Shown piece by piece: positions 14,736 to 19,254 of a DNA stretch of 23,147 nt. This stretch comes from Oscillospiraceae bacterium (GTDB lineage Bacteria; Bacillota; Clostridia; Oscillospirales; Ruminococcaceae), in NCBI GenBank assembly GCA_015067375.1, contig SVMQ01000003.1:1-23147 (forward strand), in the 5' to 3' direction. Position 1 is the first letter of the stretch, and every line of letters begins with the position of its first letter. Position numbers and translations under genes: made by a program. The notes under the pieces were generated by a model. That model made no database searches and was not told the origin of the DNA. It worked only from the letters and a program-made list of their open reading frames with translations.

Positions 14736-16277
14736 TCAGGAGAATCTCTTCTCGTACATATAGTCATCAACGCCCTTAACAACAAACGATGTGATGATAC
14801 CAAAGCAGGACACGATGGACAATACGAGCAGCACCACAACGATGTAGAAAGCGTTTCCTGATTCTACAACGCCTTCAGCCGCCTTGAGTGCAATGAAATC
14901 TTTTCTGCTCTGAAGAACTTCAAAGATCGCACTGAAGTTGCTTGCCGCCGTAACAATGAACAGCGCCAGTGCGCCGAACTTTGTAAAGCTGTAACCGCTC
15001 CACATAGCCAGTGCAAGGAAAAGCGACACGCCACCGAAAGCAATGAAATACAGATAATCCATAGCATGATATGCGGCATCGGGAGTAACAATATTGATAA
15101 GGATCACGCGTGCAGCGATGGTAAGTATGAAGCACAGCAGTACAGAGCCTGCGGAAATGATGAGTGCAACTGCAGGCTTAGCATCAGCCGCGGAGAACTT
15201 GAACTTTGTCTTCTTGAGGATAGCAACTGTAGCGAAAGCAGCAACTGCAGCAGAAGCCACGATAGCAAGCACAAGACATACTACACTGAATATCCACGAG
15301 GAAGTGACACCATTGCTGGATTTCATGAGGGTTTCAGCAGCCTTCCACTCAGGAACATTTTCATCGCCTGCTTCGAAGATGCCTTTAAGACGATTATACA
15401 CATTGGGAACCCACATGAGCCTGTTGATAAGTGCAATTATATTGCTGATAGCTGCAGCAAAGCCAAACGCCGCAAAGAAATGCATAGCCCAGTCTGTTTC
15501 TTTGATATACACGATAGCAGCGACCAGTGCAACAGCAAGAAGTGCGATCACTACAAAGCCCTGCTTGAAAGCGGGTGTGAGTGCTGTGACTTCTGGTTTC
15601 CAGTTAAGGAACAGTGTGCCGCTCTTACCGAGTGCATACATCGCATACTTCTCGAACACGCAGAACAGAGCGAAACCTGCATACAGGATGAAGCCGAACT
15701 TCATGCGCTTATTCATAGCAGAGATCTGTTCATCATTGAGCAGCATATCGTCGATATACTCCTCGTTTGTGAGTGTAACGAAGAACACACAAAGCGCAAT
15801 AGAGAACAGCGCATCAATGATACCGAAGATCATTGTACCTCTGCGCATATTGATCACAGGAACGATCAGAGCAAACATTCCAAGAACGTGCTTCGCGCCG
15901 AACAGAACAACGAAATATGTCTTTGCGAAAGACATACCCTTATACATACAGAAAGCCAGTGCAAGCGCAACACCTGTAATAACAAGGTAGATGAGGATGA
16001 TATTGAGCACACTGTCCCAAAGTGACAGGATGACCTGATTGTTTTCAACCTCCTCAGGGGTAGCAAGCATCTTGCCGAAAAGCTTTACAAGGCAGGTAAC
16101 GCCACTTGCATTATATTCATCGCACTTAAGGTACACAGGATCTATGTACAGTGGCTTGAAGAAGAATAAATACGCAAAGATCGCCTCAATCACGGAATAT
16201 ACGGCAATACCAAGACCGATAATCTTGTTATCAAGTCGGAATTTACCGGATTTCTGCATATCGAGTGTGTTTGTCAT
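14736..16277 (-). CDS. Polytopic membrane protein of unknown function
   Basis: I do not recognise the family. The 513-residue protein has no cleavable signal peptide and about 11-12 hydrophobic helices (for example about 19-41, 88-112, 118-143, 148-170, 194-213, 239-258, 265-287, 327-353, 369-398, 405-426, 433-452, 475-500). Polar loops lie at about 43-85, 170-192 and 290-325. Two segments look related: LALAFCMYKGMSFAKTYFVVLFG (about 105-127) and LFLALAMWSGYSFTKFGALALF (about 419-440). That suggests an internal duplication. AGGAGG is 8 nt before the ATG. It has its own sigma-A promoter and terminator, so it is a single-gene unit. A transporter or integral membrane enzyme cannot be excluded; no motif decides. 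Confidence 0.85.
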   Translation of the reverse strand: MTNTLDMQKSGKFRLDNKIIGLGIAVYSVIEAIFAYLFFFKPLYIDPVYLKCDEYNASGVTCLVKLFGKMLATPEEVENNQVILSLWDSVLNIILIYLVITGVALALAFCMYKGMSFAKTYFVVLFGAKHVLGMFALIVPVINMRRGTMIFGIIDALFSIALCVFFVTLTNEEYIDDMLLNDEQISAMNKRMKFGFILYAGFALFCVFEKYAMYALGKSGTLFLNWKPEVTALTPAFKQGFVVIALLAVALVAAIVYIKETDWAMHFFAAFGFAAAISNIIALINRLMWVPNVYNRLKGIFEAGDENVPEWKAAETLMKSSNGVTSSWIFSVVCLVLAIVASAAVAAFATVAILKKTKFKFSAADAKPAVALIISAGSVLLCFILTIAARVILINIVTPDAAYHAMDYLYFIAFGGVSLFLALAMWSGYSFTKFGALALFIVTAASNFSAIFEVLQSRKDFIALKAAEGVVESGNAFYIVVVLLVLSIVSCFGIITSFVVKGVDDYMYEKRFS

Positions 16278-16474: not shown

Positions 16475-18025
16475 CTAATCCTGTCTGCCGAGAGTACAGG
16501 TATATGTCATTTCCAGCACATCACCGCTGTTGAGTTTATACTCAGACATAGCACAGGAAGGAGTATCTCCGTTGATGCTGTACAGCCATCCGCTTTCGCT
16601 ACCGAGATCAAACTCATAAAGTCCGCCGATACCGCGCACATAAGCCCCTGACCACGAATCGATATAGTCTATCGTGACCTTCTGCTGACGTGCCGCTTCC
16701 GCCAGTGCATCCAGCGCCGTTGCGCCATCGGCTAAGGTAACTGTACATTGCCTCAGTACCACTCCGTCAGACGGAAGCGTAACGCCTGCATCAACCTTGT
16801 TGATATAGTCAAATGCACTGCTGCAATCAGCGGACACTGTGACTGTGATACCCTCTGTAAGCGACTGTTGCGCGTAGTATTCCTCAGCCGTACTGATATC
16901 TAAAAACCATGCCGCCGCACCTGTCAGTACAAGCACTACCGCCGCCACGATGAGCCACGGCTTTTTCCTTCCGGAAATCAGCCACACCGCAATAAGTGCA
17001 ATACTTATAACCGCGCATACTGCTGTTACGATGAGCTTAATACCGTTTCCTGACAACTTGTCAACGCTCTCATGTGATTCCAGTGCCGCGACCTCTGACG
17101 TCTGTTCGTTTTCCATTGTGACCTCTGTCTGAGACAGAAGCTTCACATAGGCAGTCAGCGCGGTGCAGACCTGCGAAGCCGCAAGCGCACTTGCACCACC
17201 ACCGCTGATATGAGAAAAGCCGCCGTCGCAGCGGTATGACAGCAAAGCCTCCAGCGCCCCGCTCTCTTCTATCCACTTTCGCTCTCCCAACGAAGCCGCC
17301 GCCATTATCGCCTGCGCAGTGCTTTCGCAATTCTCCGTACCCATGCTCGCAAAGCCGCCGCTTTCAAGCTGCATAGACTTTAACGCCGCAAATGCTCCGT
17401 CAAGCGCCAGTCCGACCGCTTCATTATCACGCTGCGGCGCAAGCGCATATATCACCGCGGATGTAATATCACAATCAGCCTTACTTCCTGTCAGTGCAAA
17501 TCCGCCATCCGCAAGCTGCAGGGACAACAACCGTGCCGTTATCGTATCACGCGTGTGTACAGCATCTGCAGGAGGTGGAAGTTCAGCACGCTCCACCGCA
17601 ATAAGCCCCCAGATATACGCGTTCATCCCCTGCTTGCTGAAATCCTCATTGAGGTACACCGCGGCATTGATAAGCTCCTGCGTGCATTCGCCGTAATGCG
17701 CCAGTGCGATCGCGCACTTCTGCAGATCAGTCGGCTTGACGAACCGCTGTGACTGCATCAGCTCCTGCGCCGTCTGCTTAGCGGAGGCTATATAACCCTC
17801 CGCACCTGAACTTCCGTAAAGTTCTGTGTAGCAGTAGATTATACGGTCTGCACCGCCGTATTCCATACCATCATAAAAGCCATCCGCATCCTTTGACACA
17901 TCATCAAAACTGTCAGAGAGTACGGACATTACATCCATATCCTGTGCAAAGGCAGGAAAAGCGGTCTGCGCCGCTATGAATAAAGCCACGCAGACCACCG
18001 CGATGATCCTTTTTATTCTGCTCAT
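16475..18025 (-). CDS. Membrane-anchored intrinsic-factor-like protein (alpha/alpha-toroid plus DUF4430)
   Basis: 516 residues. A signal peptide (1-27, ending AFA) is followed by a prenyltransferase/squalene-cyclase-type helical toroid (about 80-298). Its repeats are LQLADGGFALTG (169-180), MQLESGGFASMG (218-229) and YRCDGGFSHISG (264-275), each with a downstream helix of the D-x-T-S/A-x-x-x-A-L kind. Then come two membrane helices (about 330-351 and 357-375) joined by the basic turn SGRKKPW. A DUF4430/transcobalamin-like C-terminal domain (about 390-514) has SGWLYSINGD (478-487) and LNSGDVLEMTYT. Toroid plus DUF4430, in that order, is the layout of intrinsic factor and transcobalamin. It overlaps the upstream gene by ATGA and shares its cobalamin riboswitch. 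A corrinoid-binding surface role is inferred; binding is not shown by sequence. Confidence 0.82.
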   Translation of the reverse strand: MSRIKRIIAVVCVALFIAAQTAFPAFAQDMDVMSVLSDSFDDVSKDADGFYDGMEYGGADRIIYCYTELYGSSGAEGYIASAKQTAQELMQSQRFVKPTDLQKCAIALAHYGECTQELINAAVYLNEDFSKQGMNAYIWGLIAVERAELPPPADAVHTRDTITARLLSLQLADGGFALTGSKADCDITSAVIYALAPQRDNEAVGLALDGAFAALKSMQLESGGFASMGTENCESTAQAIMAAASLGERKWIEESGALEALLSYRCDGGFSHISGGGASALAASQVCTALTAYVKLLSQTEVTMENEQTSEVAALESHESVDKLSGNGIKLIVTAVCAVISIALIAVWLISGRKKPWLIVAAVVLVLTGAAAWFLDISTAEEYYAQQSLTEGITVTVSADCSSAFDYINKVDAGVTLPSDGVVLRQCTVTLADGATALDALAEAARQQKVTIDYIDSWSGAYVRGIGGLYEFDLGSESGWLYSINGDTPSCAMSEYKLNSGDVLEMTYTCTLGRQD

Positions 18026-18828
18026 CTCTTCTTTGAAACGTACAGAGCCATACCCGCAAGGGCGGTCACACCGATCAATGCAGCAACACCCTCAGCGCCT
18101 GTATCGGGACTGGTGCTGACCGCATCATCCGCTGCGTCTGCGTCAGGAGCAGGCTCAGCAGCGAAAGCTTCACACGCTGCGTCTATCTCTGCCTGCGAAA
18201 CACCAAATGTACCCAATGTCTTTATAGCAGCGACGTATTCATCGGAAGCCGTATCTGCTGCCGCGGCAAGCTCTGCAAGCTCCGCTGTCTGCACAGCCTC
18301 TACAAGTGCAGGGTTGCCGCCCCAGGATGTATTATCCACACCCAGATCGCAGCCGTAGCCGTAAACGGTAAAGCGGAACTGGATAACATCGCCGTCAGCA
18401 GGAACGTAGTCGCCTATGCCTACAGACGCATACTCATCGTTAAGGAACCAGCTCCAGCCCGATTCAGCGGTATAATCGTAAGCGCACAGATAGCCCTCGG
18501 TGTTTCTTCCCCACATCTCAGGGCATACAGCGGCGATCTCCGCGGGTATCTCAGCGCCTGTGTCCGCATCCGCAAAGCCCTCGATGTAGCTGCCCCAGTC
18601 GCCGTCTGCCACGAGCGCATCAGCGGCTCTCTGTACCACATCAAAGCCATTGTCGCCCTCGTAATAAGGCACGCTGACAGGCTCGACTACCAGACCCTGT
18701 CCGAGTACGGTCTTGTCAGCATAAAATGTGACATAGCCCTCAGGTGTATCCTCCGCCATCGCAGTCACCGCAACAGCGCACAGCGCTGCCGCCGACAGCA
18801 TAGCTGTCAGTAATCTTCTTGTTTTCAT
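18022..18828 (-). CDS. Secreted DUF4430 protein with sortase-like SPDTG anchor
   Basis: 268 residues. Signal peptide 1-25 (ending AMA). The DUF4430/transcobalamin-like domain (about 52-160) has GFDVVQRAADAL and the signature SGWSWFLNDEYASVGIGDYVPADGDVIQFRFT (123-154). A helical, Ala-rich stalk spans about 172-225, followed by an acidic linker. The C-terminus SPDTG (240-244), a hydrophobic stretch and KKR form a sortase-type sorting signal with SP in place of LP. No sortase gene is in the window. GGAGGAG precedes the ATG. It is the first gene after the cobalamin riboswitch and overlaps the next gene by four bases. It is read as the wall-attached partner in B12 capture; that role is inferred from the riboswitch and the fold. 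Confidence 0.82.
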   Translation of the reverse strand: MKTRRLLTAMLSAAALCAVAVTAMAEDTPEGYVTFYADKTVLGQGLVVEPVSVPYYEGDNGFDVVQRAADALVADGDWGSYIEGFADADTGAEIPAEIAAVCPEMWGRNTEGYLCAYDYTAESGWSWFLNDEYASVGIGDYVPADGDVIQFRFTVYGYGCDLGVDNTSWGGNPALVEAVQTAELAELAAAADTASDEYVAAIKTLGTFGVSQAEIDAACEAFAAEPAPDADAADDAVSTSPDTGAEGVAALIGVTALAGMALYVSKKR

Positions 18829-18857
18829 GTTTTACTCCTCCGGTAAATATAATATTT

Positions 18858-19219
18858 GCTTAACTCCAGTGGCAGGTCTTCCGGCTTGGAATCCGAGCAT
18901 AACTCATACTAATAACCGTTTGAATGAAGGAAAAGATTTGCTGAAAGACAGTGCCGATATCCAGGAAAAGAAACGCAGGCGTACTATATGTACGTCAAGT
19001 TGCTTTGACGACGATATCGGTGTTGGATTTCTGCAAAGATTTCCTGAGTTAAAAAGGTTTTTAGTATCAGTAATATGCTCCGCGCTCTGTCTGCCTTCCC
19101 CGAGACATAATCTCCAGTGACACGGCGTAAGCCTGTGACAGAAACGCAGCTTCCTCACGGCAGCGGGGACTGCTGCGGATTTTCACCGCATTCCGTTTTG
19201 CCGCCTGTTCATTAAGCCA
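18858..19219 (-). promoter_or_regulatory. Cobalamin riboswitch with an unusually long peripheral arm
   Basis: On the minus strand the core has the GCGGTGAAAATCCGC stem-loop (19189-19175), the stem GCAG/CTGC with loop TCCCCG (19173-19160), CGTGA, GTCACTG (19121-19115) and GGGGAAGG (19101-19094). The closing box CCAAGCCGGAAGACCTGCC (18889-18871) is nearly identical to that of E. coli btuB as I recall it. Terminal pairing is by GCTTAA/TTAAGC, CAGG/CCTG and CGGC/GCCG, bulging GAAGA. About 200 nt between core and closing box fold into one long arm. No T-run terminator precedes the gene, so control of translation is more likely than of termination. Confidence 0.9.
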
Positions 19220-19225
19220 AGCTAT

Positions 19226-19254
19226 ATTATAGCGCGATTTCGTCGGAATGTCAA
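19226..19254 (-). promoter_or_regulatory. Consensus sigma-A promoter of the riboswitch operon
   Basis: TTGACA (19254-19249), 17 bp, TATAAT (19231-19226). Both hexamers are perfect. The expected start, near 19219, falls at the first base pairs of the riboswitch, so no transcript is wasted upstream of it. Confidence 0.93.

Follow-up and report, generated by a model that had tools for sequence, protein, structure and literature searches.

A riboswitch-linked pair of intrinsic-factor-like surface proteins from a Ruminococcaceae genome, a probable corrinoid capture operon for a CbrT-like ECF transporter

What do two overlapping genes for surface proteins do when they lie directly behind a cobalamin riboswitch, and which uptake system, if any, do they serve? 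The question is raised by a locus of an Oscillospiraceae bacterium (Clostridia, Ruminococcaceae; assembly GCA_015067375.1, contig SVMQ01000003.1), found in a stretch of 23,147 nucleotides that is referred to here as the window, within a genome of 2.23 Mb (label G000) that is 74% complete. The observation itself is real and well supported. The pair is probably a B12-repressed corrinoid capture operon that feeds an energy-coupling factor (ECF) transporter with a CbrT-like S-component, mainly to supply the methionine synthase MetH. The riboswitch and both genes lie on the minus strand, and the features of the locus, in the direction of transcription, are the following:

19226..19254, minus strand: sigma-70-like promoter, TTGACA-17-TATAAT, agreeing with the consensus at 12/12 positions, immediately upstream of the aptamer
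18854..19232, minus strand: cobalamin riboswitch aptamer, RF00174, 41.1 bits against a gathering threshold of 31.5
18906..19067, minus strand: inverted-repeat element of about 162 bp resembling a miniature inverted-repeat transposable element (MITE), within the aptamer insertion, recognised by its inverted arms
18022..18828, minus strand: gene 1, DUF4430 (transcobalamin-beta-like) surface protein of 268 amino acids, PF14478 1.8e-7
18358..18747, minus strand: beta-grasp DUF4430 domain of gene 1, about residues 28-157
18097..18111, minus strand: sortase-like motif SPDTG of gene 1, residues 240-244, followed by a hydrophobic stretch and KKR
18022..18025, minus strand: overlap of 4 nucleotides (ATGA) between the stop of gene 1 and the start of gene 2, from the open reading frame coordinates
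16475..18025, minus strand: gene 2, toroid, membrane hairpin and DUF4430, 516 amino acids
17120..17941, minus strand: alpha/alpha-toroid of gene 2, about residues 29-302, from PF00432 (1.4e-5), predicted helices and fold matches
16901..17050, minus strand: two-helix membrane hairpin of gene 2, about residues 326-375, from hydropathy, homologues and the model
16493..16849, minus strand: C-terminal DUF4430 of gene 2, about residues 393-511, PF14478 6.2e-14 at residues 434-509

A cobalamin riboswitch directly before the two overlapping genes had been proposed from the sequence in the original prediction, and its score and the short overlap confirm it. RF00174 has no second match in the genome; the E-values are 2.1e-7 in the window and 4.9e-9 in the whole genome, and model positions 1-189 are covered. 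In place of 26 model positions the aptamer carries a stretch of 223 nucleotides holding the MITE-like element, of which a second copy with 90% identity over 162 bp lies on contig C239; the 231 nucleotides around the element form a stable fold (z -3.2), and the aptamer core is recognised despite the insertion. The promoter is a consensus match only, in a scanned region where 8 promoter-like sites compare with a mean of 6.5 in shuffled sequences. Gene 1 starts 25 nucleotides past the aptamer, and the ribosome-binding site GGAGGAG directly behind the aptamer, together with the absence of any called terminator-like site on the same strand before that start, points to a switch that likely acts at translation.

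Gene 2 is the part of the pair that most resembles the animal B12 carriers. It had been described as a toroid joined to a DUF4430 domain, the same pair in the same order as in intrinsic factor and transcobalamin, and the predicted folds agree with that description. The PF00432 match falls slightly below the cut-off (25.1 versus 26.5 bits), and the predicted structure bears out the toroid; the predicted folds match transcobalamin, haptocorrin and intrinsic factor, the beta domain 5no0 being among the matches, at 11-17% identity in the structural alignments to the animal carriers. The two window proteins score 52.6 and 32 bits against PF14478 (cut-off 23.8), and no further DUF4430 is found in the window genome at E<=0.001. 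Between toroid and DUF4430 sits a membrane hairpin that the first account had left out, with helices at about residues 332-350 and 357-375 by hydropathy, or 326-350 and 356-374 in the predicted structure. It is present in all 35 aligned homologues, with a short positive loop of 2-4 Lys/Arg; since positively charged loops face the cell interior according to the positive-inside rule, the loop would lie inside and both domains outside. Eight toroid residues are invariant in the 35 rows (Gln102, Asp184, Asp186, Thr188, Ser235, Gln238, His272 and Gln285) and may line a ligand cavity. In two related loci (L021 and L022) adjoining genes encode the toroid part and the helix-plus-DUF4430 part separately, so that gene 2 looks like a fusion of two such genes.

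Gene 1 corresponds to the beta domain alone. The signal, DUF4430 domain and sortase-like tail ascribed to it are all found: in addition to the PF14478 match and the motif listed above, residues 6-24 are hydrophobic and signal-like by hydropathy. The S[PA]xTG motif is kept in 30/30 aligned homologues, 23 of which match the NPXTG-anchored family NF033846 of NCBIfam at E<=0.01, the window protein itself scoring 19.9 bits, under the cut-off of 23.5; the protein is probably anchored to the cell wall. Its model (predicted local distance difference test, pLDDT, 80) has the human transcobalamin beta domain 5no0 as top match at E 2.3e-5, and a transcobalamin-type beta-grasp comes first in both Foldseek and VIA. 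For both proteins, then, structure prediction gives folds of the transcobalamin and intrinsic factor type, toroid included. Nothing useful came from the gene 1 profile against PDB sequences or from single-sequence PDB searches.

Whether the riboswitch belongs to these proteins more generally can be judged from their relatives. Scanning a single genome of each species yielded 22 related loci, mostly metagenome-assembled and titled as Clostridia or subgroups thereof in 21 cases and as Bacillota only in one; four of them (L006, L013, L020 and L025) begin in the locus or too near it for a judgement on the riboswitch, which leaves 18. RF00174 lies upstream in 13 of these 18, and in 13 of the 14 genomes with both pair and riboswitch, the window's included, it is the only one found, G122 having two. 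A second sample comprised 119 genomes of the window's family, in which DUF4430 gave 74 matches in 59 genomes and RF00174 gave 136 matches in 80 genomes at E<=0.001 (above cut-off in 76 genomes). An RF00174 on the same strand lies within 9 kb upstream of 36 of the 74 DUF4430 matches, spread over 31 of the 59 genomes and including the two of the window, where 0.17 would be expected by chance; the count is 33 if only riboswitches above the cut-off are admitted, those below it being in G047, G053 and G100. Within 9 kb downstream or on the other strand, RF00174 accompanies none of the 74. The RF00174 negatives are soft, because stricter filters were applied to the 119 genomes and, in some pair-bearing genomes, the whole-genome scan scored a subset of the candidates. 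In one family locus (L066 10866-10943) an AdoCbl-II riboswitch of 36.8 bits (gathering threshold 36.5) replaces RF00174 before a toroid-DUF4430-ECF operon, and L068 has an AdoCbl-II riboswitch below threshold.

The probable identity of the uptake system follows from the genes that accompany DUF4430 elsewhere and from their counterparts in the window genome. Forty loci were fetched by our own choice from the 74 DUF4430 matches, 20 linked to RF00174 and 20 unlinked, and an ECF S or T gene is present in 19 of the linked and 16 of the unlinked ones (35/40; the exceptions are L055, L076, L077, L082 and L084). Among the related loci, the pair in L019-L022 is followed by EcfT and EcfA and then by an S-component, except in L022, where the contig ends. 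The original prediction had suggested a search beside B12 ABC transporters; it is ECF genes that are found next to such proteins in both samples. Their arrangements are of two recurring kinds. In the larger one, toroid, DUF4430, EcfT, EcfAA and EcfS share an operon in which their order varies; in the smaller one, a short DUF4430 gene precedes an S-component. L046 and L048 are examples of relatives with a complete operon. In the small units (L061, L063, L064, L065, L079, L081 and L083) a DUF4430 gene of about 130-180 amino acids is followed by one for a small CbrT-like S-component. RF00174 precedes four of these units (L061 and L063-L065), and the type is possibly a minimal form of the system.

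The ECF profiles were built partly from these fetched loci; when each locus was left out in turn, the gene was recovered in 47/47 cases, the weakest being L085 at 8e-9. A profile of 18 large S-components finds 6FNP, which is CbrT, the B12 S-component of Lactobacillus delbrueckii (PMC5997447), at 8.4e-21 (next solved S-component 1.4e-3), and a profile of nine small S-components, encoded beside short DUF4430 genes, finds 6FNP only (2.7e-21). In 21 of the 24 genomes with such proteins that were searched with the large profile, a CbrT-like S-component is found. That of the window genome, at C224:4387-5061, is the single match to the large profile (E 2e-84) and by itself finds 6FNP, its only clear solved relative, at 1.3e-6, with the next hit at 0.2. 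The EcfT profile matches 18/18 genomes, in 17 with an E-value no worse than 1.1e-32, and in the window genome the match lies at C17:22624-22995 (positions 3-129); PF02361 alone gives no EcfT there, which may be due to divergence and truncation of the gene. In the relative G119 (L148) a double EcfA follows EcfT. The expectation of an uptake system encoded elsewhere is therefore borne out in part, in that other contigs of the same genome encode a CbrT-like S-component and a truncated EcfT.

Two further kinds of protein stand beside these transporter genes. In nine genomes a protein family of 413-453 amino acids with a low-complexity tail lies directly before the CbrT-like S-component; the window genome is one of the nine, with the member at L093 2175-3482 on contig C224. 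Two members checked have no Pfam match, and a profile of the 435-amino-acid neighbour of the S-component gave nothing informative. Proteins like PQQ beta-propellers, the fold also of BtuG of Bacteroides, open or join some ECF operons (L022 3938-6130, L052 1670-4309, L054 9855-12494 and L060 9411-11045).

As for the use of the imported corrinoid, the B12-binding domain PF02310 occurs in 16 of 18 genomes and is missing in G119; three of the four best matches were inspected and, as far as the fetched pieces reach, have MetH domains. Of the 18 genomes one has CbiD, which marks anaerobic B12 synthesis, and this suggests that these organisms mostly cannot make B12 and hence consume it; the absence of CbiD from the other 17 carries no weight on corrinoid salvage. 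In L085 (2601-8835), genes for DUF4430, a short open reading frame, a second DUF4430, a putative S-component without a Pfam match, MTHFR, a partial Met_synt_B12 match and a MetH-type methionine synthase follow one another in this order.

From these elements a route can be proposed. Falling adenosylcobalamin would let the riboswitch, acting as an OFF-switch, permit expression of both genes; gene 2 would be a membrane-tethered analogue of intrinsic factor whose toroid and DUF4430 close on one corrinoid at the outer face of the membrane, and the gene 1 product, probably anchored to the wall, would intercept corrinoid at a greater distance and relay it inward. From there it would be handed to the ECF transporter with the CbrT-like S-component encoded elsewhere in the genome and would mainly serve MetH. 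With RF00174 found only once, control by the riboswitch would in the window's lineage be confined to the capture proteins. The succession from riboswitch through surface display to CbrT-like partner is drawn from sequence and predicted structure. The earlier interpretation, in which the two proteins hold corrinoid at the surface for uptake, gains support from the folds, the riboswitch linkage and the CbrT-like S-component; its corrinoid binding and hand-off, together with OFF-switch regulation and cell-wall anchoring, are steps that we infer.

Several observations weigh against this reading. The toroid sequence profile finds squalene cyclases and not B12 carriers, and in VIA cyclases match the toroid no worse than intrinsic factor (Z 20.4 versus 19.6). 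DUF4430 is found, too, in surface-type proteins of other kinds, a DUF5776 protein of Lactobacillus among them. RF00174 is absent from five of the 18 assessable related loci (L014, L015, L018, L021 and L023), the first three of which have none even at E<=5; for 38 of the 74 family DUF4430 matches a linked RF00174 is missing. In the window's clade (L004-L018) the search for ECF genes next to the pair came out empty, and the window holds no CbiO/CbiQ-type genes. Contig C17 ends within the EcfT of the window genome, three of the 24 genomes searched (G120, G122 and G125) show no S-component, and the window genome, at its 74% completeness, shows no B12-binding domain.

Gut corrinoids are diverse, and of the competing explanations the one with most to recommend it, although unlikely, is that the pair captures incomplete or unusual corrinoids, such as cobinamide or pseudocobalamin, instead of B12, along the same ECF route. 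CbrT imports cobinamide besides cobalamin (PMC5997447), whereas the carrier fold predicted here is that of the transcobalamin family. It is decidedly improbable that the proteins keep B12 at the cell surface, to store it or to deny it to competitors, and hand none of it to a transporter: the detachment of the pair from ECF genes in the window's clade and the position of the only RF00174 found would fit, but the ECF genes in 35/40 fetched family loci and in L019-L022 argue for transport. Even less credence can be given to delivery to another importer, for example a BtuFCD-type ATP-binding cassette transporter; btuFCD is present in many Gram-positive gut bacteria (PMC6977713), yet the CbrT-like S-component accompanies such proteins in most of the genomes searched, and in relatives the genes for DUF4430 and ECF proteins lie side by side. 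Scarcely any weight remains for DUF4430 and toroid as general surface domains, for adhesion or polysaccharide, with a coincidental or relic riboswitch, since the other DUF4430 architectures, the unlinked family matches and the element inserted in the riboswitch are outweighed by a linkage of 36/74 against 0.17 expected, with none in the wrong orientation, by the CbrT-like partners and by the MetH neighbour.

A corrinoid capture operon that feeds a CbrT-like transporter also accords with an earlier prediction. Burroughs, Balaji, Iyer and Aravind (2007, PMC1796856) defined a transcobalamin-like clade of SLBB domains and described toroid fusions, signal peptides, Gram-positive anchors, paralogous pairs and CbiO/CbiQ neighbours, an operon with CbiO/CbiQ-type genes being a general trend there and not a strict definition; B12 scavenging and a transfer to animals were already proposed (PMC1796856). 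The present genes agree with those SLBB proteins in predicted signal peptide, probable anchor, toroid-beta-grasp fusion, paralogous pair and link to CbiO/CbiQ-type (EcfA/EcfT) genes, and differ from the 2007 description in the riboswitch, the CbrT-type S-component, the hairpin between the domains and the separation of the pair from the transporter in this genome. Nowhere does the text of PMC1796856 use the word 'riboswitch'. Riboswitch control, the CbrT link, tethering through the hairpin and the transporter-detached layout seem to be new here; no experimental test of these proteins was recognised in the openly licensed literature, and the case thus supports and extends the 2007 prediction. 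The statement that no characterised system of this make-up is known stands as far as experiment is concerned, and has to be qualified by the scavenging predicted in PMC1796856.

Other known systems share parts of the arrangement. Animal intrinsic factor, transcobalamin and haptocorrin share with gene 2 the two domains, their order and the predicted fold, but they are soluble, secreted and without membrane helices, whereas gene 2 is predicted to be tethered by the hairpin between its domains. A solved structure, PDB 3u7z (RUMGNA_00854 of Ruminococcus gnavus), titled 'putative metal binding protein', is a single domain of 97 residues. ECF-CbrT of Lactobacillus delbrueckii, encoded in the cluster nrdJ-cbrS-cbrT-pduO, is a B12 transporter (Santos et al. 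2018, PMC5997447) to which the S-component and EcfT relative of the window genome are alike; the substrate is bound by CbrT itself, and the part of that paper drawn on here names no capture protein outside the cell, in contrast to the capture proteins proposed for this locus. BtuG and BtuH of Bacteroidetes likewise capture B12 at the surface ahead of a transporter, and a propeller gene is found in the operons of L022, L052, L054 and L060, but they belong to Gram-negative bacteria and work with the outer-membrane BtuB (PMC8941943). Less is known for Firmicutes according to Putnam et al. (2022), who mention, for Eubacterium siraeum, a homologue of BtuH close to a predicted ECF transporter of cobamides (PMC8941943). 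The folds of BtuG and BtuH also differ from those predicted here.

There is about an even chance that these loci represent a class of ECF transporter with intrinsic-factor-type capture, in which a tethered clamp and wall-anchored domains deliver to a CbrT-like S-component and the riboswitch of one lineage controls capture only. To our knowledge, ECF transporters are held to lack a substrate-binding-protein layer; if the reading is true, the capture proteins would supply one, and the ancestor of the animal B12 carriers would be placed in a working bacterial uptake route, which bears on the origin of intrinsic factor. Such a capture system could explain part of the competition for B12 in gut and rumen. 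The locus provides a B12 switch, a pair of small ectodomains that can be expressed and a transporter partner that can be named, which makes the 2007 prediction directly testable.

A neighbouring gene of the window (14736-16277) encodes a protein of 513 amino acids with about eleven hydrophobic segments, no family match and a promoter-like site of its own. It follows the pair in eight of the 22 related loci (L004-L007, L014-L016 and L018).

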